A stretch of DNA of 41,030 nt, taken from assembly GCA_029882215.1 (NCBI GenBank), contig JAOULC010000027.1, positions 1 through 41,030 of the forward strand, written 5' to 3'. The DNA comes from Gammaproteobacteria bacterium (lineage in GTDB: Bacteria > Pseudomonadota > Gammaproteobacteria > SZUA-229). The position numbers and the translations under genes are program-made. Shown here in pieces: positions 19,045 through 35,924 of this stretch. The notes under the pieces are model-generated. The model was not told the DNA's origin. It saw nothing but the letters and a program-made list of their open reading frames with translations, and searched no databases. Position 1 is the stretch's first letter; each line of letters starts with the position of its first letter.

Positions 19045-19416
19045 CTAAACCTGCGCGGTTGCCACTAATCTGCCGTGATACATTTTCATATCACAGCTAA
19101 AGCCATATTCTCCTGCCACAGGTAAGATAATTTCAATCTCAACCGGAAGACCTAATGGCAGATCCAGACTTTTACCGATGCCTTCAAACAGCACTTTTTC
19201 TGCACACGGACTGGGGTCTTTTCGCAAAAAACGCAGGGTGTATTTTTGATTGGCAGTAACTTCAATATTGGCCGGGGTATAGACACCGTTTTCAACGGAT
19301 ATATCGATTATTTGTTTGCCTGTCATTGATATGGTCTTTATTGGTGCAAGCCAGAACCACCAGATAATTGCTGCAATCAGTATCAAAGCCAGTACATTCA
19401 CGATCAGCACCGTCAT
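19045..19416 (-). CDS. Membrane-anchored cupredoxin-domain protein
   Basis: The 123-residue protein has an N-terminal hydrophobic helix (residues about 3-23, N-L-A-L-I-L-I-type followed by I-I-W-W-F-W) and then a cupredoxin fold like the EfeO/PF13473 group. Possible copper ligands are C71 in D-P-S-P-C-A and C108-D-M110-K-M112-x-x-H114 near the C-terminus. The expected location is the periplasmic face of the inner membrane. Its ATG overlaps the stop codon of the CopA ATPase gene (ATGA), so translation is coupled. That suggests it receives or stores copper exported by the pump. This is an inference from context; similar small proteins are often found next to copper ATPases. Confidence 0.82.
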
Positions 19417-21656
19417 TTTTTATCCCCTGTTGAGCGGAACCAGCGTAAACGATTGGCATTCGTCACCACCGTGAGCGATGACATCGCCATCGCAGCACCG
19501 GCAATCATAGGATTTAACAGCACGCCGAAAAGTGGGAATAAAATACCGGCAGCAACAGGAATACCTAAACTGTTATAAATGAAAGCACCAAATAAATTCT
19601 GTTTTATATTTCTCACGGTTGCTTTTGAAACCGCAATCGCATCGGCCACGCCATTTAATGAACCGCGCATCAGGGTAATATCGGCGCTTTCGATCGCCAC
19701 ATCGGTGCCCGTGCCGATAGCAAACCCCACATCGGCACGCGCCAGTGCCGGTGCATCATTAATACCGTCACCCACCATGCCGACAACGTGTCCCTGCGCC
19801 TGCAGCATACTGATCTTCTGTTCTTTAGTTTGTGGCAGCACTTCAGCATAGTACTCATCAATATTTAACTGTTCAGCCACCGCTTTCGCGGTGTGGCTGT
19901 TATCACCCGTTAACATCACCACTCTGATTCCCAGCTTATGCAATGTCTGAATTGCCTGCTCGGAATCTTCTTTGAGCGGGTCAGATACCGAAACAATACC
20001 GGCAAGCTGATTATTGATCGCCACAAACACCGGGGTTTGTGCCTGCGCGGCTAGCTGCTCAGCCTGTACCTCTGCTGCCGTTATATCGACATTATATCTG
20101 TGCATCAGCACTGCATTACCCACCAATACCGGCGACAGATCAGTACTGCCACTGACACCCAGCCCTGCCAGTGCATTAAACTCCGCGATCTCAAACAAAT
20201 TAATGCCTTTTTCTTTCGCCGCATTAACAATGGCTTCTGCCAGCGGGTGTTCTGATCCCTTTTCCAGACTCGCTGCGTATTTCAGTACATCATTTTGTTG
20301 CCATGATCCGAAGCCAATTAGTGCTGTCACAGTTGGCTTACCCTGGGTAATGGTACCGGTTTTATCCAGCACCACCACATCCAGTTTGCCTGATTGCTGT
20401 AAGGCTTCGCCATTACGTATCAGCACTCCCAGCTCAGCGGCTTTGCCGACGCCCACCATAATTGAAATCGGCGTTGCTAAACCCAGTGCACAGGGACAGG
20501 CAATGATCAGCACTGTCATCATGGTGACCAGTGCATAACTGACAACCATGTCTTCAGCCACCAGAGCGGCCGAAAAATTAAACCATAACAGGAAGGTGAT
20601 AACGGCAATAATCAAAACAGCCGGCACAAATACCGATGCAATTTTATCCGCCAGTTTACCGATCGCTGGTTTAGAGTTTTGTGCCTTTCTAACCAGTGCA
20701 ATAATTTGTGCCAGCGCTGTTTCACTGCCGATTTTTTTTGCCTGAAATAAAAACGTGCCTGTTTTGTTTATCGTACCGCCAACCACCTCATCACCGGTAT
20801 TTTTTTCAACCGCCAGTGGCTCTCCCGTCAGCATGGACTCATCCACACTGGAATGACCATCGATAATGACTCCATCGAGCGGAATTTTTTCTCCCGGGCG
20901 AACTCGCACTGTTTCACCCAGACCAACATCATTAACTGCCACATCCAGTTCTTTACCGTCACGAATCACCCGCGCCGTTTTTGGCTGCAAACCAATTAAT
21001 CGTTTGATTGCCTCAGAAGTTTTACCGCGTGCCCGCATTTCCAGTGCTGAGCCCAGATTGATTAATGCAATAATAATGGCCGCGGCTTCAAAATAAGCAT
21101 GCCGGGCAAGCGCAGGTACCAGCTCAGGATTAACAGTAATCACCATTGAAAACAGCCAGGCAGTACCCGTTCCCAGTGCTATCAGTGTGTCCATATTGGC
21201 GTTATGATTTTTAAAAGACTTCCAAGCCCCGCTATAAAACTGACCGCCTGAAAACCACAGAACCCATGCACTCGCCAGGCCGATGAGAAACCAGATACCC
21301 TGCCCCTGCAGATTATTCAAACCGGGTAATAAACCGGCCATTCCGAATATAAATAACGGTACCCCCAGCAGCGCTGCAGCCAGTGATTTTTTCAACAAAT
21401 TCCGGTAATACTCAAATTCTGCGGCTTCTTTTTCTGTCTCATCTTCCTCTGTAACCAGCAGGCTTGCTTCATACCCGGCATCCGCTACGGCTTTTAACAG
21501 CACTCCTGTATCATAATCACCTTCCACCTGAGCAACATGCTCTGCGAAATTAACTGACGACTGTTTCACACCAGCCACATTCACCAGTGCTTTTTCAACA
21601 CTGCTAACGCAGCCAGCGCACATCATGCCAGCGATTGAAAAACGTTCGGTTTTCAT
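19413..21656 (-). CDS. copA: Copper-exporting P1B-type ATPase
   Basis: CopA pumps Cu(I) from cytosol to periplasm. I choose the ATG at 21656, which begins [16 protein letters not shown] and lies 7 bases after copZ; the longer frame would overlap copZ. The 747-residue protein has one N-terminal HMA domain (C13-x-x-C16), eight predicted membrane helices, the metal-site C387-P388-C389 in helix 6, the phosphorylation site D431-K-T-G-T and the S-E-H-P-L nucleotide-domain motif. [10 protein letters not shown] and a helix-8 M-S-S-L motif are near the end. These fit the CopA (Cu+) subgroup rather than zinc or cadmium pumps. It is in an operon with copZ and the cupredoxin gene. Confidence 0.96.
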
Positions 21657-21663
21657 TTTAACA

Positions 21664-21873
21664 TCACACAGCCAGCTCAGCTGTAAAGCCAGCCTTCTCA
21701 ACTGCCGCTATCAATGCAGCAACATCCGTTGAGCCGGACACCACTGCTTCCTTATTTTCAAGGCTGACGTTCACACCATCAACCGCAACGACTTCTTTTA
21801 ATGCCGTTTCTACTGCAGAAACACATCCGGCGCATTTCATACCCGTGATATTTAATGTGACATGATTACTCAT
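21664..21873 (-). CDS. copZ: Copper chaperone (HMA domain)
   Basis: A 69-residue single HMA domain with the metal site G-M-K-C14-A-G-C17 and the usual beta-alpha-beta pattern. CopZ binds Cu(I) in the cytosol and delivers it to CopA. The ATG at 21873 is preceded by GAGAG at a suitable distance; the alternative start 15 bases upstream adds M-R-V-N-I. The gene is first of the copZ-copA-cupredoxin operon and is separated from the upstream DUF2231 gene by 245 bases carrying a nested inverted repeat. Confidence 0.93.
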
Positions 21874-22017
21874 AATATTTACTCTCAACGCTTAGTGACA
21901 ACAACAGCCCGACTTCTCTACCACCCTTCATTCAGAAGGTATATTTTATATCATTCTTGTAACTGAAATAGTAATCATCTGCTGCTTTTTTCAGCATGCT
22001 CTGGCTTATCCGGTCCC

Positions 22018-22094
22018 TTACGACAGATGCGCTTCTGTTATGCTGTTTTCAAGCAGCATAACTTCCACGGGCTACTCACTCTTGGCTGTCGTAA
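22018..22094. repeat. Nested double inverted repeat upstream of copZ
   Basis: The outer arms TTACGACAG (22018-22026) and CTGTCGTAA (22086-22094) are perfect. Inside them GTTATGCTG (22037-22045) and CAGCATAAC (22054-22062) form a second perfect hairpin. No U-tract follows on either strand. The element sits in the spacer between the DUF2231 gene and copZ, both minus strand, and may be a processing or regulatory structure or a small palindromic repeat unit. Confidence 0.7.
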
Positions 22095-22118
22095 AAACCT
22101 CTGATTCTTACTTTTAAG

Positions 22119-22727
22119 TCAATGTTTATGACCATCATTATTGTGCATATCTTCGTGATGTGTTGACTTGTTTACATCATTATCCTTTGTCATAGGCAAA
22201 TCATCACTAAGTGTTGAGTGACCATGTTCAGCCCCCTCAGCATGTTCATGATTGTGTCCATCCTGTCCTTCTTCAACCGCAGGTAAAGACATTACTCCAA
22301 GACCATAACGATAGACTGCTTCTCCACCTCTCCATGCTGCAGATGCAAGTAACAAAAATGCAATCAGAGTAATGACCGTAAATCCAATATTGATTATTTT
22401 ATCTGATCTATTTCTGAAAAATGCCCATATAGCTGTTACAACAAACAGCACCAGAGCTGCCAACGCCCAGTTACGGTGATCTGTCATTGCTGCGTGCGAT
22501 GGTCCGTCATGTGCGACGGTGTTATACGCAAACCAGCCTGCTGTGGCTGTCACCATGATAAAGCCACTTCCCAACCACAGGTTCCAGTCGGCAAAGGTTT
22601 TAACTGCGACATAGCTGACTTTTTTTCTTAACGCATAAGCCAGACAATAGAAGACAACTGCAAGAGTTAAAGTCGACACTGTGAAATGTACAAACACAGG
22701 GTGCCAGTTTGGGATAATTTCAAACAT
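22119..22727 (-). CDS. DUF2231 membrane protein with a His-rich tail
   Basis: The 202-residue protein starts M-F-E-I-I-P-N-W-H-P-V-F-V-H-F, the typical N-terminus of DUF2231 proteins, and has four predicted membrane helices between residues about 12 and 145. The C-terminal 50 residues are hydrophilic and carry many His, Asp and Glu in clusters such as H-N-H-E-H, H-H-E-D-M-H and H-K-H at the very end, a likely metal-binding tail. Family function is unknown. Here it is the last gene of the run small Cys-rich protein - multicopper oxidase - CopB - cytochrome c - DUF2231, so a part in periplasmic copper handling or in the associated electron transfer is likely. Confidence 0.82.
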   Translation of the reverse strand: MFEIIPNWHPVFVHFTVSTLTLAVVFYCLAYALRKKVSYVAVKTFADWNLWLGSGFIMVTATAGWFAYNTVAHDGPSHAAMTDHRNWALAALVLFVVTAIWAFFRNRSDKIINIGFTVITLIAFLLLASAAWRGGEAVYRYGLGVMSLPAVEEGQDGHNHEHAEGAEHGHSTLSDDLPMTKDNDVNKSTHHEDMHNNDGHKH

Positions 22728-22780: not shown

Positions 22781-23221
22781 TTATTTATTTTTACTTTCTA
22801 CCTTTTCATACCAGAGCTGGTAAATTTCATCCGACCACTTTGACTGAAACCATGCCATTACATCGGTAATTTCCTGTTCACTGAGTTTGTCCTTCCATGC
22901 TGGCATTGTTCCACCCAGGTGTTTTGTGCCGTCGCTAATCGTACGTCTGTTCATTTGGCTCGAATGATGCCATGCGTGCCCGCTGCCATTGAGTGGTGGT
23001 GCGGGTGACTTACCCTCGCCTTTTGCCCCGTGACAAATAGCACAGTTTTGTTGAAAGACTTTCTTACCGCGCCTGATTTGTTCACTATCAGTGATTCTTA
23101 TATGCTTTGAGCTGACCACAGCCGGTGATTCGGCTTGTTTTTTATTTTCACTGTCGGCCGGCTCTGAACATGCGGCCAGCACAGTTGTGAAAGCTGCTAG
23201 CATTAACAAATGATATTTCAT
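22781..23221 (-). CDS. Lipoprotein cytochrome c of the copper cluster
   Basis: I start at the ATG at 23221, where the product begins M-K-Y-H-L-L-M-L with a lipobox L-A-A-C at residues about 15-18; an upstream frame adds 21 residues rich in Arg and Cys. The 146-residue protein is thus probably outer-membrane anchored. One heme site, C-A-I-C-H, is near residue 59, and the axial Met is probably in G-G-T-M-P-A-W near 104, followed by the D-V-M-A-W-F-Q helix. Such cytochromes occur next to CopA/CopB-type copper systems and could receive electrons from the multicopper oxidase or a membrane oxidoreductase; that is inference. Confidence 0.87.
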   Translation of the reverse strand: MKYHLLMLAAFTTVLAACSEPADSENKKQAESPAVVSSKHIRITDSEQIRRGKKVFQQNCAICHGAKGEGKSPAPPLNGSGHAWHHSSQMNRRTISDGTKHLGGTMPAWKDKLSEQEITDVMAWFQSKWSDEIYQLWYEKVESKNK

Positions 23222-23320
23222 AATTATATTCTCTCTGGTTTTTAAGCAAGCGGCTTGTCTGCCGCCTTGCCTTAAGCACATCATCTGATGTGCTTAAGGG
23301 ATATCTGACTTTATAGTTTT

Positions 23321-24019
23321 TTAAAACCAGGCACTAAAACCGACAACCACGGCAAAATCACTGGACTCAGCACCATTTGCATTGGCCATATCGGCCGTAG
23401 CAGAGAACTTATTACTCCAGCTCAAGCCGATGTAAGGCGCAAACTCACGTTTTATTTCATAGCGTAAGCGGATCGCCGCATCGATACCGGACAAGCCTGA
23501 ACCAATACCGCGATCAGGATCATCTTTCGTATAAAAAGTTACTGTAGCTTCCGGGCTCAGTACCAACCGCTGTGTCAGCATCATTTCATATTCAGCATTA
23601 ACACGTAACGATGCCTGACCGGATTCTGCGACAAACAAGGCTGCATCCATGTCAATGAAATACGGTGCCTGCCCATCAAAACCTATCACTACCCAGTCTT
23701 GTGTAAGGCCGTCAGTATCATCGTGACGCACTCCTGTTTGCAGGTCCCAGTAGGCTGAAATCGCGCGACTGTACAGCAACTGAATTTCACTTTCTTCTGT
23801 CACACCATCCAGTCTTTCAACATCTGTTTTTATCCAGAATTTATTCAGGTCTTTGCCGACCCAGATTTCCGCATCAAGAGTCAGTGGATCACCTTTTTCA
23901 TCACTGGTTTCCAACTCGTTTATCATTACTTTAGTCAGCACAGGATCATCTGCACCGCCGGCAAAAATTTGCGAAGAGAAGCCAAAGATTAAGGCTGATA
24001 TAAATATTATACTTTTCAT
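23321..24019 (-). CDS. copB: Copper-resistance outer-membrane protein CopB
   Basis: A 232-residue protein with a signal peptide (cleavage near I-F-A-G-G) and a C-terminal beta-barrel pattern that ends in F-S-A-W-F. The L-x-A-E-I-W-V-G-K-D-L-N-K-F-W-I-K-T stretch near 50 and R-x-D-x-G-L-T-Q-D-W near 100 are characteristic of CopB/PcoB (PF05275). CopB is needed for copper resistance together with the multicopper oxidase CopA. Unlike PcoB and Pseudomonas CopB, this version has no long Met/His-rich N-terminal region. Its gene follows the oxidase gene after 12 bases, as in classical cop operons. Confidence 0.9.
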   Translation of the reverse strand: MKSIIFISALIFGFSSQIFAGGADDPVLTKVMINELETSDEKGDPLTLDAEIWVGKDLNKFWIKTDVERLDGVTEESEIQLLYSRAISAYWDLQTGVRHDDTDGLTQDWVVIGFDGQAPYFIDMDAALFVAESGQASLRVNAEYEMMLTQRLVLSPEATVTFYTKDDPDRGIGSGLSGIDAAIRLRYEIKREFAPYIGLSWSNKFSATADMANANGAESSDFAVVVGFSAWF

Positions 24020-24031
24020 TATTCCTCTCCT

Positions 24032-25885
24032 TTACACCACTTCAACTTTACGGAACATGCCCATCATGTGATACATCAGGTGGCAATGGTAGGCCCAGCC
24101 ACCTTTTGCATCAGCCGTCACCAGATAACTGGCTTTACCACCTGGAGGCACAATAATCGTATGTTTACGCGGTATAAAGTCCGGGTCACCGGTTTCCAGA
24201 TCACTCCACATACCATGTAAATGAATCGGATGATTCATCATCGTGTCATTCACTAAATTAAATCGAACACGTTCTCCAAATTTAAGTTTAATCGGTTCTG
24301 CATCGGCAAATTTCACACCATTCATCGACCACATATAGCGGCTCATGTTACCTGTCAGGTGGATATCAATTTCACGTGAAGGCTCACGTTTATCCGGCGT
24401 TGGGTAATAGTTACGCAGGTCTGCATAAGTTAAAACTTTACGGCCATTATTTTCTAAACCGATACCAGCTTCATCAAGTCTGTAAGCCGGCGCATCGGAT
24501 CGCATATCAACATGCGGGCCATATTCGGTGTCGGCATGTACTATTTCTCGCGCACTGCCATAACCGGCTTTTCCAGCTTTATCAACCGCATGTTCGGAGA
24601 ATGTCATGCCGCCATCAGATCGTTTATCACCGCCGGACATATCCATATTGCCACCACACTTCATCTCCGGCACAGCAGGCGATTTTGACATAGCCGACAT
24701 GTCATGACCGGCATGCGCGCCACCCGACATATCCATACCCATATCTTTATGACCTAACAGTGGAGCCGCATCCATAGCCGGTATCATTGCTTTCATTTGT
24801 GGATCCGGTGTTAAGGTGCCACGCGCATAGCCACTGCGATCAATCGCCTGTGCAAAGACGGTATAGGCCTTATTATCTTCTGGCTCAACAATGACATCAT
24901 AGGTTTCAGCCACACCTATTCTGAATTCATCAATAGAAACCGGCTTAACCAGCTGACCGTCTGCAGCCACCACGGTCATTTTTAAGCCCGGAATGCGCAC
25001 ATCAAAAAAGGTCATTGCCGCTGAATTGATAAAACGCAGCCGTATTTTTTCACCCGGATTGAACAAACCCGTCCAGCCCGTTGCGGGATTTTGCCCGTTC
25101 ATCAAAAACGTATAGGTATAACCTGTAACATCCGAAATATCGCGGTCACTCATGCGCATATCATTCCACATGCCACGCTTAGACCAGGTCATCGCCCAGC
25201 CATCTTTCCTGATATCATCATAAAGATCGCCGGCGGTACGCTCGCGGAAATTATAATAGTGACTCAGTTTTTTAAGCTTGCCATAAACATTCTCCGGCTT
25301 TTCATCACTCCAGTCAGATAGCATCACCACGTAATCTTTATCATAACTAAAAGGATCTGTTTTTTTAGGCTCGATAACAATGGCACCATATACCCCGGTC
25401 TGCTCCTGAAAACCGGAATGACTGTGATACCAGTATGTACCTGACTGAATGACCGGGAACTTATAAGTGAATGTTTCGCCCGGCTTAATGCCCTTAAAAC
25501 CTTCACTGATGTGCGGCACACCATCCATTGCCGATGGCAAAATCAGCCCGTGCCAGTGAATTGAGCTGTCAACTGACAAGGCATTTTTAACATTTAAGGT
25601 AACATCATCACCTTCCTGAAAATACAGCGTCGGTGCCGGTAAACTTCCATTCACAGTAGTCGCAGGACGGTTAACACCGGTAATATTGACGGCTTGTTCA
25701 CCAATAGTTAAATCAAAATTTGTGCCTTTCAGCGTTTGCGGCGTATTTTGCTGCACCGCAGCCATTATCGATTCTGGAATAATACCCAGACCAATAGCGA
25801 CTGAACCCACGGTCATTCCCTGAACAAACCGTCTGCGTTTTTTATTAAAAAGTTTACTTTCAAAATTCGAATCATTGCGAGACAT
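24032..25885 (-). CDS. copA: CopA/PcoA-type periplasmic multicopper oxidase
   Basis: The 617-residue protein has a twin-arginine signal (R17-R-R-F-V-Q-G, then a hydrophobic stretch to about residue 42) and three cupredoxin domains. Copper-ligand motifs are H-W-H-G near 113, W-Y-H-S-H near 155, H-P-I-H-L-H-G-M near 555 and H-C-H-L-M-Y-H-M-M-G-M near 600. Residues about 400-445 hold a Met/His-rich insert (D-M-G-M-D-M-S-G-G and similar) that probably binds extra Cu(I). It oxidises Cu(I) in the periplasm and can sequester copper. This protein is unrelated to the P-type ATPase at 19413-21656 despite sharing the name. It is followed by copB. Confidence 0.95.
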   Translation of the reverse strand: MSRNDSNFESKLFNKKRRRFVQGMTVGSVAIGLGIIPESIMAAVQQNTPQTLKGTNFDLTIGEQAVNITGVNRPATTVNGSLPAPTLYFQEGDDVTLNVKNALSVDSSIHWHGLILPSAMDGVPHISEGFKGIKPGETFTYKFPVIQSGTYWYHSHSGFQEQTGVYGAIVIEPKKTDPFSYDKDYVVMLSDWSDEKPENVYGKLKKLSHYYNFRERTAGDLYDDIRKDGWAMTWSKRGMWNDMRMSDRDISDVTGYTYTFLMNGQNPATGWTGLFNPGEKIRLRFINSAAMTFFDVRIPGLKMTVVAADGQLVKPVSIDEFRIGVAETYDVIVEPEDNKAYTVFAQAIDRSGYARGTLTPDPQMKAMIPAMDAAPLLGHKDMGMDMSGGAHAGHDMSAMSKSPAVPEMKCGGNMDMSGGDKRSDGGMTFSEHAVDKAGKAGYGSAREIVHADTEYGPHVDMRSDAPAYRLDEAGIGLENNGRKVLTYADLRNYYPTPDKREPSREIDIHLTGNMSRYMWSMNGVKFADAEPIKLKFGERVRFNLVNDTMMNHPIHLHGMWSDLETGDPDFIPRKHTIIVPPGGKASYLVTADAKGGWAYHCHLMYHMMGMFRKVEVV

Positions 25886-26003
25886 ATTTAAAACCTCATC
25901 ACTATCGTATATGCAATATTTAATTAAGCAGACTCAGTTGAGCGCGCCGTAATTTTTTTGTTTTGCCGCAGATTATGCGTGCATTACTACCGATAAGGAG
26001 GTA

Positions 26004-26345
26004 CTAATGCGGCGGGTGATAAAACCGATAGGATATGTATTGCGGGGTGCTTGCCAGCTGATTTGTCAGTCGAACAACATCAACCACCATTGTCAAATCG
26101 TCCAGCTCTGTGCTAATAATAAAATGACAGGCTGCACAATGCCCCGTGTCACAGGGGAAGTCGCTGCCTGTGTGACAACTGGTTGTATCAGCCGGTGCGG
26201 CACTGTTCATGTAATGATGATCTGTTTGCTGAGTCAGCATTTCTGCCTCTGCAACTAAACCGCTATTTGCGAGCGCAAAGGATGCCTGCATGCACCATAT
26301 AACTAGTGCACAGATGCTTATTCCTTTGCTGGGTTTATTGATCAT
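26004..26345 (-). CDS. Small secreted Cys/His-rich protein with a CxxCH motif
   Basis: The 113-residue product has a signal peptide (hydrophobic residues about 9-25, cleavage near A-L-A-N). A cluster of potential metal ligands follows: H43-H44, C57-H58, C65, H69, and C70-A-A-C73-H74. The last could attach one heme c, although the protein lacks the rest of a class I cytochrome fold, so copper binding is just as possible. It is the first gene before the multicopper oxidase, with a 118-base gap. I do not recognise its family. A strong -10-like sequence lies about 35 bases upstream of its ATG. Confidence 0.6.
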   Translation of the reverse strand: MINKPSKGISICALVIWCMQASFALANSGLVAEAEMLTQQTDHHYMNSAAPADTTSCHTGSDFPCDTGHCAACHFIISTELDDLTMVVDVVRLTNQLASTPQYISYRFYHPPH

Positions 26346-26379
26346 ACCTGATAGATAACCTGTTTTTATGACTGAGCCT

Positions 26380-26385
26380 ATTATA
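26380..26385 (-). promoter_or_regulatory. Possible -10 element of the multicopper-oxidase operon
   Basis: On the minus strand this reads TATAAT, a perfect sigma-70 -10 hexamer, about 35 bases before the ATG of the small Cys/His-rich gene. The hexamer 17 bases further upstream (ACAGCA) is a poor -35, as is common for activator-dependent promoters. Confidence 0.4.
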
Positions 26386-26464
26386 TAGCGCTACGCGTAT
26401 ACTGCTGTTACAGAATTATTATTTATATTTGCATAATTAAAAACAGCCTCAGAATAAATAGTGC

Positions 26465-26519
26465 TGACCAGTCTCTGCTGTCATCAGTATATGATCAGTC
26501 TATTGTTCTGACCATAGAC
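26465..26519. promoter_or_regulatory. Repeated TGAYCAGTCT motifs, candidate operator
   Basis: TGACCAGTCT (26465-26474) and TGATCAGTCT (26492-26501) are direct repeats 27 bases apart. A third partial copy, TGACCATAGAC, starts at 26509 and is inverted-repeat partner to GTCTAT at 26498-26503. They lie upstream of the possible promoter of the copper operon and just downstream of the AraC-family gene. Binding by that regulator is a guess. Confidence 0.3.
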
Positions 26520-26612
26520 AGATTAACTGCCACAAAGTTGCATAACTATTTATGGATCAGCCTGACAACTATACGCCTGTCACTGTTGATTTTTTAGCAG
26601 GCATGGCCAGCT

Positions 26613-27179
26613 TCAGACTTTATCCAGTGAGTTTCTCGAGAGATTATCCGATGACTTCTTATACTGACTGGGCGTATAGCCTGTGACTTTTTTAAACTGG
26701 TTACTCAGGTGAGAAAGGCTGCTATAACCGAGCTGATAAGCAATTTCGGTGGTGGTTAATTCATTATAGGCCAGTAACTCTTTTACTTTCTCTATTTTCT
26801 GATTAATAAAATACTGCTCGATTGTCACGCCTTCATGAGAGGAAAATAACTGACTGATATAATTATAATCCTGGTTAACTTTCTCCTTTAAATAGTCCGA
26901 TATTTTTATTTTCTCCAGTGCGCCCTGGTGGTGAACCAGCTCTATAACCGCGCTTTTTATCTGATCAACAAGCCGGCTTTTACGGTCCCCAAGTAACTCA
27001 AATCCCAGTGGCTCTATTGCTTTTCTGATCTGTAGCAGCTCTTCATTCGATAGTGTGTCCTTTGCCAGCTCTATTTCTCCCAGCCTAACCGATAACAGTT
27101 CATAGCCCAGTACTTGAAACTGATTTTCAATCACCATATTACAGCGATCACAAACCATGTTTTTAATATACAATTTCAT
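26613..27179 (-). CDS. AraC-family regulator with an N-terminal HMA-like metal-sensing domain
   Basis: The 188-residue protein joins two parts. Residues 1-70 resemble a heavy-metal-associated domain: M-K-L-Y-I-K-N-M-V-C10-D-R-C13, with a predicted beta-alpha-beta pattern. Residues about 85-180 form an AraC DNA-binding domain with two helix-turn-helix motifs, including T-T-E-I-A-Y-Q-L-G-Y-S-S-L-S-H-L-S-N-Q-F-K and the G-Y-T-P-S-Q-Y end. Binding of Cu(I) by the CxxC would be an obvious trigger for the HTH. Its ATG overlaps the stop of the upstream cytochrome c gene (TAATG). Similar short regulators are familiar beside efflux and copper genes in Bacteroidetes, so transfer is possible. It is the only dedicated regulator visible in the copper island. 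Confidence 0.85.
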   Translation of the reverse strand: MKLYIKNMVCDRCNMVIENQFQVLGYELLSVRLGEIELAKDTLSNEELLQIRKAIEPLGFELLGDRKSRLVDQIKSAVIELVHHQGALEKIKISDYLKEKVNQDYNYISQLFSSHEGVTIEQYFINQKIEKVKELLAYNELTTTEIAYQLGYSSLSHLSNQFKKVTGYTPSQYKKSSDNLSRNSLDKV

Positions 27180-27586
27180 TAGTACAAACCACTCTCGCGC
27201 TGCTTGTCTCGAATATACTTTATAATATGAGTAACCTGCTCTGGTCTCAGCTCGGTTACTGCAGGCATATTACCAAAATACCAGTGATGTTGTTGTACCC
27301 CCTGATAGACAGCCAGATAAATTGATAAGTCACCATGATGATCCGGCTTATAATACGCATGCAGTAATGAAGGTCCTTTATCCGTTCCGTCAAGCGACAT
27401 GCCGTGGCATTGAACACAATACATGCCGAATAATTCACGGCCTTTTTCCTTATTACCAACAACACTTTCTTCGGGCAAATACGCAGCCCTTTTCTTAACT
27501 GCTACTGGGCGCTCATATAATATCGCTATAGCAATAAAACAGAACAACATCAGCACAGCACCACGAATTATAAATCTGTCCATCAT
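27179..27586 (-). CDS. Membrane-anchored monoheme cytochrome c coupled to the AraC gene
   Basis: A 135-residue protein with an N-terminal hydrophobic helix (residues about 8-25) that may be an uncleaved anchor, then a class I cytochrome c domain. The heme site is C-V-Q-C-H near residue 58, and the distal Met is probably in Y-F-G-N-M-P-A-V near 105, followed by V-T-H-I-I-K-Y-I-R. Its stop codon overlaps the ATG of the HMA-AraC gene, so the two are translated from one message, an unusual pairing of a periplasmic cytochrome with a cytosolic metal sensor. The 9-base tandem repeats lie just upstream. Confidence 0.87.
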   Translation of the reverse strand: MMDRFIIRGAVLMLFCFIAIAILYERPVAVKKRAAYLPEESVVGNKEKGRELFGMYCVQCHGMSLDGTDKGPSLLHAYYKPDHHGDLSIYLAVYQGVQQHHWYFGNMPAVTELRPEQVTHIIKYIRDKQRESGLY

Positions 27587-27603
27587 CTCACCTATACCGC
27601 ATA

Positions 27604-27630
27604 ATCAACAACATCAACAACATCAACAAC
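27604..27630. repeat. Three tandem 9-base repeats
   Basis: Three perfect copies of ATCAACAAC occupy 27604-27612, 27613-27621 and 27622-27630, in the 119-base divergent gap between the cytochrome c/AraC pair and the diguanylate cyclase gene. Copy number of such a repeat can vary by slippage and may affect promoter spacing for either gene. Confidence 0.85.
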
Positions 27631-27705
27631 TAAATGAATTGCATGGTTTTGTCTTTCTTGTTTTACTATACATAAATTTTATCACCTGCAGCAGGAGCTT
27701 TACTT

Positions 27706-28878
27706 TTGTCACAGTCGTTGTCCGCCAGCCGTTCACATACAGAAAACACCCAGTCTGATAAATTACAACTGCTGTATCACCAGTCGTTTCAGGCTGTCTT
27801 TTTTAGCCTGGTTGCTGCCCTGATCTACACCGCAATCTTATGGAGACAACCAGATCATCAGTTGCTACTGGTCTGGCTGGCGGTCATCCTGATGACATCG
27901 CTACTCAGGCTAGCGCTGTTCATAAGCTACCGCTGTAAAAAACCCGATAAGACTGCAGTTTTAAAGTGGCAACACCCGTACTATATTTCACTGATGCTCT
28001 CTTCTCTTAGCTGGGGTACCGGTACCCTTATTATTTGCATGGATAAACCCCTGTTATTTCAGATTATCACCTATTGCTTTTTGCTGGGTATGGCAGCCGC
28101 CGCTTTATCTGTCTATTCGTCGATACGCTATATGTCTGTATCGACTATCACTGTGATGTTAGTACCCATTACCGCCTGGTTTACTATACACCCTGACACC
28201 ACCGCCAATCTGATGGCTGTTGCCGGTGTGTTTTTTCTCATTTCCACTCTGCGTGCTACTAGCATTCTTGCTGATACATTACACAATAGCTTCATGCTGA
28301 CACATAAATTAAAGCTTGCCTATGAAACAGCTGAGCACCTGGCCCGAACTGACATGTTAACCGGATTGAATAACCGCCGGGCTTTTATCGAGCTTTCTGA
28401 GCGGCAACTTAGCCTTTGTAAACGTAACAATACTCCCGCCTCACTGCTGGTGCTGGATCTGGATCATTTCAAGACCATTAACGATGAGCTAGGTCATGCA
28501 ACCGGTGATTTTGCATTGCAACATTTCTCTGAATTATTACAAAAATCCGTCCGCTCCTCTGATATTTGCGCCAGAATAGGCGGCGAAGAGTTCGCACTTC
28601 TGTTACCTAACACCGGCTTAAGCTCTGCTCATAAAGTCGCTGAAAAACTAAGAATGATTATTGCCAGCGAAGTCATCAATACAGCTGACAATACTTTTTC
28701 AATATCGACCAGCATCGGCATTGCCAGTGGCCAGTACGAACTGGACGTTTTATTACAAACCGCAGATATGGCCATGTATGAAGCAAAGCAATCCGGTCGC
28801 AATCAGGTAAAGCTTTATACGAACGAACAGCCCGTTTCTGAGAATAACTCACTTGCACTGGAGCCTGCCCGCCACTAA
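27706..28878 (+). CDS. Membrane-bound diguanylate cyclase (GGDEF)
   Basis: The 390-residue protein has five to six predicted membrane helices in residues about 25-205 and a GGDEF domain at about 215-375. The active-site loop is R-I-G-G-E-E-F at 290-296, and the inhibitory I-site R-S-S-D (283-286) lies five residues before it. L-T-G-L-N-N-R-R-A-F opens the domain. It therefore should make c-di-GMP and be product-inhibited. The TTG start at 27706 is chosen because AGGAG (27693-27697) sits 8 bases upstream and no better ATG is near. It is the only plus-strand gene inside the copper island and has no recognisable ligand-binding domain. Confidence 0.93.
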   Translation: MSQSLSASRSHTENTQSDKLQLLYHQSFQAVFFSLVAALIYTAILWRQPDHQLLLVWLAVILMTSLLRLALFISYRCKKPDKTAVLKWQHPYYISLMLSSLSWGTGTLIICMDKPLLFQIITYCFLLGMAAAALSVYSSIRYMSVSTITVMLVPITAWFTIHPDTTANLMAVAGVFFLISTLRATSILADTLHNSFMLTHKLKLAYETAEHLARTDMLTGLNNRRAFIELSERQLSLCKRNNTPASLLVLDLDHFKTINDELGHATGDFALQHFSELLQKSVRSSDICARIGGEEFALLLPNTGLSSAHKVAEKLRMIIASEVINTADNTFSISTSIGIASGQYELDVLLQTADMAMYEAKQSGRNQVKLYTNEQPVSENNSLALEPARH

Positions 28879-35275: not shown

Positions 35276-35656
35276 TCAGACCCGGAGAATTCCGGTTTTT
35301 TGCAAAAAAGAGGGCCCGTAATCGTGCTGCTCAGAAAAGTATTCAACTATGGCTGAGATTACTGGCGGGGTATTAATGAGAGTAACAGATAAATTTGCAG
35401 GCAGTAAAGACAGGTCGATCAGTGAAACAGGCTCAGAACCTGTACTGTGCCCGTTATCCAGAGCGGTCACGCTTTCACAAATAACCGGCTGACAGTGAGC
35501 CTGCATATCATGCCCCATCGCCTTGTGTTGCTGCATCTCTACCATCATCAGTGCATGCGCACCGCTCTGAACAGCCAGCCCAAACGATGACAATACAAAA
35601 AAGAACAAGATTATCTTGCTGATTTTGTTTTGTTTTTTACGCATCAATTTAAACAT
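35276..35656 (-). CDS. Small secreted Met/His-rich hypothetical protein upstream of cusC
   Basis: The 126-residue product has a basic N-terminus and a hydrophobic signal sequence (residues about 14-32, cleavage near A-H-A). The next 30 residues contain M-M-V-E-M-Q-Q-H-K-A-M-G-H-D-M-Q-A-H-C, a run of Met, His and Cys typical of periplasmic copper ligands, then a second Cys. The C-terminal half has no motif I recognise. It is 82 bases before cusC on the same strand and is probably the first gene of the cus operon. Its position mirrors that of the small Cys/His-rich gene before the multicopper oxidase. Confidence 0.6.
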   Translation of the reverse strand: MFKLMRKKQNKISKIILFFFVLSSFGLAVQSGAHALMMVEMQQHKAMGHDMQAHCQPVICESVTALDNGHSTGSEPVSLIDLSLLPANLSVTLINTPPVISAIVEYFSEQHDYGPSFLQKTGILRV

Positions 35657-35924
35657 GGGTTATTTTCATACATGGCCTGTGCAGATATTAATACTTCAGA
35701 CCAATTAACTCAACATTTGTTCCAAATAACTTTAATACTCTGAACACTGATCAGAACACCTGGCTAACAGCCGTCAGTTTCTCATACACGTACTCTAGTA
35801 TTAGGTAGCGTCCTAAGATATTTAAAGCATCACAACAATTGAAGCATGTATAACGCCGCTAATCAGCTATTCGTTATTTTTATTTCTATCTTGTATCTGA
35901 TCACTGCTTTGTTCCATTCATCTA

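Follow-up and report, generated by a model that had tools for sequence, protein, structure and literature searches.

A 41,030-nt contig from a gammaproteobacterium of the SZUA-229 lineage (the window, by which we mean this whole stretch) carries a copper gene island in which a cytochrome c gene overlaps the gene of a regulator that joins a CxxC-containing domain to an AraC-type DNA-binding domain. What does this regulator sense, which genes does it control, and is the cytochrome its functional partner? An earlier note on this DNA had described the two genes and their TAATG junction, and both are present on the minus strand as follows:

27179–27586, minus strand: cytochrome c gene, 135 amino acids (Pfam PF00034, Cytochrom_C, 3.3e-11; one CxxCH)
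26613–27179, minus strand: HMA-AraC regulator gene, 188 amino acids (Pfam HTH_18, 4.2e-18)
27141–27152, minus strand: codons of C10-x-x-C13 (MVCDRC) of the regulator; both cysteines are present in 90/90 first-set and 51/59 held-out regulators

At the junction, the last A of the cytochrome TAA stop is also the A of the regulator ATG, a 1-nt overlap. From sequence comparisons, we consider it quite likely that this protein senses Cu(I) in the cytosol as a one-component system and activates transcription, that it is of Bacteroidota origin, and that it acts through an operator of two direct half-sites 21 bp apart.

The regulator and its CxxC motif

The HTH_18 match of the regulator spans residues 102–175. 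This AraC domain is present in 34/34 family members, and no MerR family (MerR-type HTH or CueR profile) is among the regulator's listed Pfam or NCBIfam matches. In an AlphaFold model built on an alignment of 34 sequences (mean pLDDT 88.4), the AraC helices occupy residues 66–177, and the best AraC fold match to residues 65–188 is AraT (Z 14.4). The N-terminus, about residues 1–64, is predicted to form a strand-helix-strand-strand-helix-strand arrangement (over about residues 1–62), an HMA-like fold into which the position of C10 and C13 fits. This part scores Z 7.1–7.5 against GolB, Atx1, and CopZ; because ACT and AcuB domains of similar general fold score alike (7.0–7.6), the fold by itself is no proof of metal binding, and a Z near 7 can reflect a common arrangement. 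In a profile alignment by hhalign, 15 regulator N-terminal domains matched 6 CopZ/CopA HMA domains with a probability of 86.9 (E 4.2e-6), and the regulator CxxC fell on that of CopZ/CopA. The HMA domain named in the earlier note is thus backed by the profile comparison, the predicted fold, and Pfam HMA matches in 5/34 relatives (best 1e-4), but not by a Pfam HMA (PF00403) call in the window protein. The CxxC itself is present as C10 and C13, and the pairing of an HMA-like domain with an AraC HTH supports the suggestion of a one-protein soft-metal sensor.

The motif is widely shared but not universal. Residues M8, V9, C10, R12, and C13 are identical in 90/90 regulators of the first set (89 loci), whose members were in part preselected through an IKNMVC-containing search pattern and a 110-bit cut; a divergent regulator excluded by that cut (L011) reads MVCARG. 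In the held-out set of 59 regulators, for which a profile was the sole search tool, all 59 keep M8, V9, R12, and C13, and C10 is replaced by serine in 8/59. These MVSxRC variants (L171, L177, L178, L181, L185, L187, L188, and L203) are close kin in the tree and possibly have a different function. Some loci encode a second regulator-like ORF (L065:12073–12660, 133 bits; L008:9341–9952, 53 bits), and weaker second matches in L016, L032, L068, and L073 may be AraC domains alone.

A direct-repeat candidate operator and the genes behind it

A conserved direct repeat was first seen in the regions between regulator and copA genes. Its consensus comprises two direct half-sites of about AATTNTRYAAC spaced 21 bp apart, and it was modeled with a single half-site matrix applied twice at fixed spacing, with spacings of 14–29 bp compared. 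At 21 bp the median score over 90 regions was 18.5 bits, and every other spacing gave 13.3 bits or less; 65/90 regions exceeded 12 bits at the 21-bp spacing, and 25/90 had no such site just after the regulator. A matrix trained solely on 84 Bacteroidota regions was applied to what we call the window clade, comprising the window, one genome of the same family (G016), three of the same class (G164, G236, and G335), and a Woeseia record (L015). In the window and in 5/5 other clade loci, its top site lies directly behind the regulator gene (19.9–28.9 bits). The window site and the promoter element next to it are:

26406–26438, minus strand: predicted operator, a direct repeat with 21-bp spacing (26.7 bits, Bacteroidota-only matrix)
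26427–26438, minus strand: first half-site of the direct repeat, AATTATGCAAAT
26406–26417, minus strand: second, promoter-proximal half-site, AATTCTGTAACA
26380–26385, minus strand: consensus −10 box TATAAT, starting 20 nt after the operator

Runner-up scores in the six clade loci were at most 14.5 bits (14.5 in the window), and the maximum over 40 Markov shuffles of the window was 19.7 bits. The operator IUPAC pattern has one exact match in the 3.4-Mb genome, at the window site. With up to two mismatches it occurs in 24 places versus 21 for a reversed control, so the weaker matches in the genome are noise. Of two regions that the earlier note had singled out for footprinting, 26346–26612 does contain an operator-like direct repeat, and 35657–35924 holds none of the window's 14 best sites (down to 7.9 bits). 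Next to the latter region, a small His/Met-rich orphan gene (35276–35656, minus strand), its product apparently exported, heads CusCBA-like genes and is preceded by no operator of this family.

Several other motif searches were set aside. A shared-motif search over five intergenic regions of the window stayed within the range of 12 shuffles at widths 12 and 16 and rose just above it at widths 20 (46.4 versus ≤44.4) and 24 (55.4 versus ≤54.3); the sites were low-complexity, distinct from the later operator, and were dropped. A 33-bp matrix without tied half-sites settled on single half-sites and placed the window site below first rank, and a first tied fit, with its left half-site cut at the stop codon, gave no clear spacing. 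The conserved 21-bp direct repeat, as a predicted operator, is new here.

The model was then applied to 60 further Bacteroidota loci, 58 of which were usable, with regulators <95% identical to those used for training. Within 330 nt after the regulator, 34/58 had a site above 12 bits and 29/58 one above 16 bits, leaving 24/58 with none above 12. Among shuffles (20 per locus), at least one passed 12 bits in 18/59 loci and 16 bits in 3/59; sites above 12 bits on the opposite strand occurred in 15/58. In seven held-out loci lacking a site after the regulator, a same-strand site above 20 bits lies elsewhere. The MVSxRC variants differ from regulators with both cysteines in this respect: a predicted operator above 16 bits follows the regulator in 0/8 of the former versus 29/50 of the latter (Fisher p 0.004, uncorrected for kinship, the serine variants being close kin), and one above 12 bits in 1/8 versus 33/50.

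Over loci totaling 1.38 Mb, those used for training among them, 104 sites exceeded 17 bits versus 7 for a control matrix. The downstream gene is a copA relative at 46 of these strong sites and the 113-aa gene of the window at one. At another 21, the downstream gene is related to one of the following: HMA chaperone (10 sites), the HMA-AraC regulator itself (4), hyp_L005 (2), four-helix copper protein (2), DUF305 (1), or CusB (2). At the remaining 36, the downstream gene has no assigned identity (21), there is none (11), or the site lies inside a gene (4). Upstream regions of copA scored above 16 bits in 11/30 regulator-positive versus 0/30 regulator-negative genomes (Fisher p 3e-4; the two groups were unmatched for kinship).

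In class-II AraC-family promoters, the activator site takes the −35 position. No recognizable −35 was read ahead of the TATAAT in the window; the half-site edge lies there, unlike TTGACA. An operator at the −35 position, followed by a consensus −10 without a −35, is the geometry of an activator. At the same 20-nt offset, other clade loci have TATTAT (L095 and L098) or TATGCT (L097); L096 has TATAGT at offset 19, and the Woeseia record lacks a good −10 at offset 20. In Bacteroidota, the −7 box has the core TTTG, which lies 23–24 nt after the right half-site in 54/59 training sites, although the longer TAnnTTTG begins at 19–20 nt in just 10/59. In held-out sites above 16 bits, TTTG lies at 23–25 nt in 23/41 and is absent from 15–31 nt in 18/41.

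Behind the predicted operator, the window encodes a run of copper genes:

26004–26345, minus strand: Cys/His-rich 113-aa protein (GHCAACH), first gene behind the operator, no Pfam match
24032–25885, minus strand: CopA-type multicopper oxidase (TIGR01480, 846 bits)
23321–24019, minus strand: CopB (PF05275, 3.5e-77)
22781–23284, minus strand: second small cytochrome c (PF13442, 7.9e-15)
22119–22727, minus strand: DUF2231 membrane protein (PF09990, 6.3e-12)
21664–21873, minus strand: CopZ-like HMA copper chaperone, 69 aa (sequence reading, alignment with HMA domains)
19413–21656, minus strand: Cu(I)-exporting P-type ATPase, copA (TIGR01511, 617 bits; start set at MKTERF, the longest ORF beginning at 21701)
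19045–19416, minus strand: cupredoxin-like protein (PF13473, 6e-20)

The start codon of the 113-aa gene lies 60 nt from the operator. Its product is apparently exported, as judged by eye; across 368 other genomes of the class it has three matches, all weak (E 5e-4 to 5e-3), which were not used. CopL is a copper-binding leader-type protein, and the 113-aa protein could be a leader of the CruR/CopL kind. The copZ-copA genes lie ~4.5 kb from the operator, and a simple scan of the gaps 25886–26003 and 21874–22118 found nothing terminator-like on the minus strand, so read-through across the copper genes is possible. A second Cu-ATPase of this genome is encoded on another contig. Set against the other clade loci, the window seems to have the order regulator-operator-copZ-copA, into which five genes have been inserted behind the operator.

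Origin, mechanism, and alternative explanations

Among the genomes compared, the regulator is found chiefly in Bacteroidota. It occurs in 142/296 Bacteroidota genomes (a known-positive center included) and, besides the window's own, in 3/368 genomes of the window's class. Among 36 other genomes of the window's family or genus, it was found in one, G016; a match in another (G037) covers the AraC part alone and was not counted. The genome collection holds at least 583 relatives, of which the best 80 comprise 79 from Bacteroidota and one from Woeseia. Plasmid relatives (31 records) all bear Bacteroidota names, with copper-type genes in all seven contexts inspected, and no relatives were found on viral contigs. 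In a midpoint-rooted tree of 149 rows, the six window-clade regulators form one clade (96/91) nested among Bacteroidota, bootstrap values being unsettled. The kinship with Bacteroidota put forward in the earlier note therefore agrees with both phylogeny and genome counts, and the lineage probably came from that phylum.

At the five other clade loci, copZ and/or copA lie downstream of the regulator; a 113-aa ORF intervenes in L097, and the Woeseia record ends inside copA. More broadly, a copA-like ORF lies within 300 nt downstream of the regulator in 38/89 loci and within 350 nt in 21/59 held-out loci; copA directly behind the regulator is thus frequent, without being the arrangement in most loci. 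A CueR profile run over 25 genomes exceeded its cut-off in Woeseia alone, which so has both CueR and HMA-AraC, and in 0/19 Bacteroidota, a weak survey because just 1/14 control genomes passed the strict cut-off. The best CueR-like match in the window genome reaches 94 bits, with the cut-off at 147.

The likeliest reading of these observations is a class-II activator that responds to Cu(I). Whether free or delivered by CopZ, the metal would bind C10-x-x-C13 of the HMA-like domain. The AraC domains of two protomers would then occupy the half-sites 21 bp apart on one helix face, the promoter-proximal one taking the place of a −35 box, and RNA polymerase would be recruited to the −10 box 20 nt downstream. 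In Bacteroidota, the predicted targets are most commonly copA, along with genes for a copper chaperone, the four-helix copper protein, DUF305, and CusB. The single site of the window would drive the 113-aa gene and probably the genes from the multicopper oxidase through CopB and cytochrome c to DUF2231, perhaps extending by read-through to copZ-copA-cupredoxin.

The earlier note had advanced a different role, in which cytochrome and sensor form a functional pair, made in fixed ratio, that ties respiratory electron flow to metal status. We regard this as highly improbable. In its favor are the 1-nt overlap, a Pontibacter plasmid (L007) with a monoheme cytochrome c (and SCO) directly ahead of the regulator, and three loci with other heme-motif proteins upstream (a protein with two CxxCH in two, a Haem_bd protein in one). 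That plasmid is, however, the one other such pairing among 90 regulators, and at the five other clade loci the upstream gene lacks CxxCH or is absent on the regulator strand. The 59 held-out loci yield just one Haem_bd-like and one CusB-like CxxCH protein upstream; on these counts the cytochrome is rejected as a conserved partner. None of the window's 14 best sites (down to 7.9 bits) lies ahead of the cytochrome gene. The overlap as such is ordinary for this family: according to a simple ORF caller, 26/90 regulators begin −10 to +10 nt from the end of an upstream same-strand ORF, which encodes a DUF3347 protein relative in 16/26, and three loci (L062, L070, and L086) have the identical 1-nt overlap with a DUF3347-type gene. 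Nor does a 1-nt overlap imply a fixed ratio, and a link of metal status to respiration is unsupported beyond adjacency. The cytochrome has a hydrophobic N-terminus, by eye a putative membrane anchor. Its relatives occur in 34/368 other genomes of the class and in 162 plasmid records (10 covering ≥80% of the protein); 3/3 plasmid contexts inspected are copper islands, and 7/14 further loci encode a copA-like ATPase. These relatives are widespread and often lie beside copper genes without an HMA-AraC regulator, so the cytochrome is an ordinary component of copper islands with a distribution of its own. Here it would simply share the regulator transcript; at a guess, it might be an electron acceptor when copper is oxidized in the periplasm.

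Two other readings were weighed. It is rather unlikely that the protein responds to a soft metal other than copper (Ag(I), Au(I), or Hg(II)) or to zinc, or acts as a repressor. HMA-type CxxC sites can accept several thiophilic metals, and the gold protein GolB is among the best N-terminal structure matches; against this, most of the identified genes that follow strong sites are copper genes (copA, chaperone, four-helix protein, and CusB), and the site has the geometry expected for an activator. Alternatively, the repeat might serve a different regulator that acts on copA promoters in Bacteroidota, its link to HMA-AraC being one of neighborhood alone. Some regulator-positive loci indeed lack the repeat, yet none of the 30 copA promoters from regulator-negative genomes carries it, it accompanies the regulator outside Bacteroidota (6/6 loci), and it is missing beside the Cys-to-Ser variants. 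Direct repeats about two helical turns apart also fit AraC-type binding, and we judge this alternative very unlikely.

Three features of the surroundings are recorded here. Between the cytochrome start and a divergent GGDEF gene, positions 27603–27631 hold ATCAACAAC as three tandem 9-bp copies. The GGDEF gene (27706–28878, plus strand) encodes a diguanylate cyclase and lies within the copper island, divergent from the cytochrome-regulator pair. In Bacteroidota, two proteins of ~360 aa with two CxxCH each, encoded upstream of HMA-AraC (L048:6833–7909 and L061:6911–7993), are possibly peroxidase-like.

Returning to the Cu(I)-responsive activator, we lean slightly toward a broader proposal. HMA-AraC proteins would constitute an undescribed sensor class in which a copper-chaperone fold is fused to AraC, loaded by CopZ through HMA-to-HMA transfer, and activates copA through the 21-bp repeat as a main cytosolic Cu(I) switch of Bacteroidota. 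Regulator and operator would have crossed phyla together, keeping the promoter geometry despite different boxes, and the side branch lacking the first cysteine would have lost both copper function and operator.

Comparison with known systems

A search of the open-access literature found no description of an HMA-AraC copper regulator, which is no proof of absence. For the copper genes of the flavobacterium Bizionia argentinensis, one study reports MerR and CopY candidates without copper sites, suggests that ArsR-type proteins might act as regulators in the cytoplasm, and considers response regulators resembling CusR; it finds around copA no chaperone-plus-regulator arrangement as in other Gram-negatives, and its text has no mention of AraC (PMC11213822). 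With a defined operator and a presence in about half of the sampled Bacteroidota, HMA-AraC would be a better sensor candidate than ArsR-type or two-component proteins, and is possibly a main cytosolic copper sensor of this phylum. Its operator would provide a searchable copper regulon for Bacteroidota, and the two together would be a regulator-operator pair that seems to function across phyla whose promoter boxes differ.

The gene order recalls CruR, a DUF2946 protein reported to be a copper-responsive uORF product, small, exported, and carrying CxxC, that heads copper operons (PMC9426467). The gene at 26004–26345 may likewise head a copper operon as a small exported protein, but its product matches no DUF2946 (0 Pfam families) and has no C-terminal RAPP motif. 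The predicted N-terminal fold of HMA-AraC has the beta-alpha-beta-beta-alpha-beta order of CopZ and Atx1 chaperones, and its CxxC aligns with that of CopZ; HMA-AraC differs in being fused to a DNA-binding domain and in carrying an Arg between the cysteine positions (90/90 and 59/59).

In presumed role, a counterpart is CueR, the MerR-family copA activator of proteobacteria that also senses cytosolic Cu(I), although its fold and DNA-binding domain are unrelated. The target of CueR is a dyad within a stretched spacer, whereas HMA-AraC would act on direct repeats 21 bp apart upstream of the −10. The DNA-binding fold is that of AraC/XylS activators (AraC at I1-I2, MarA, and SoxS), from which HMA-AraC departs in its short length of 188 aa and in a sensor domain that is HMA-like rather than a cupin, with metal as the presumed ligand. 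At araBAD, direct half-sites about 21 bp apart overlap the −35, and the predicted HMA-AraC operator has the same layout, with direct half-sites spaced ~21 bp that overlap the −35 position.
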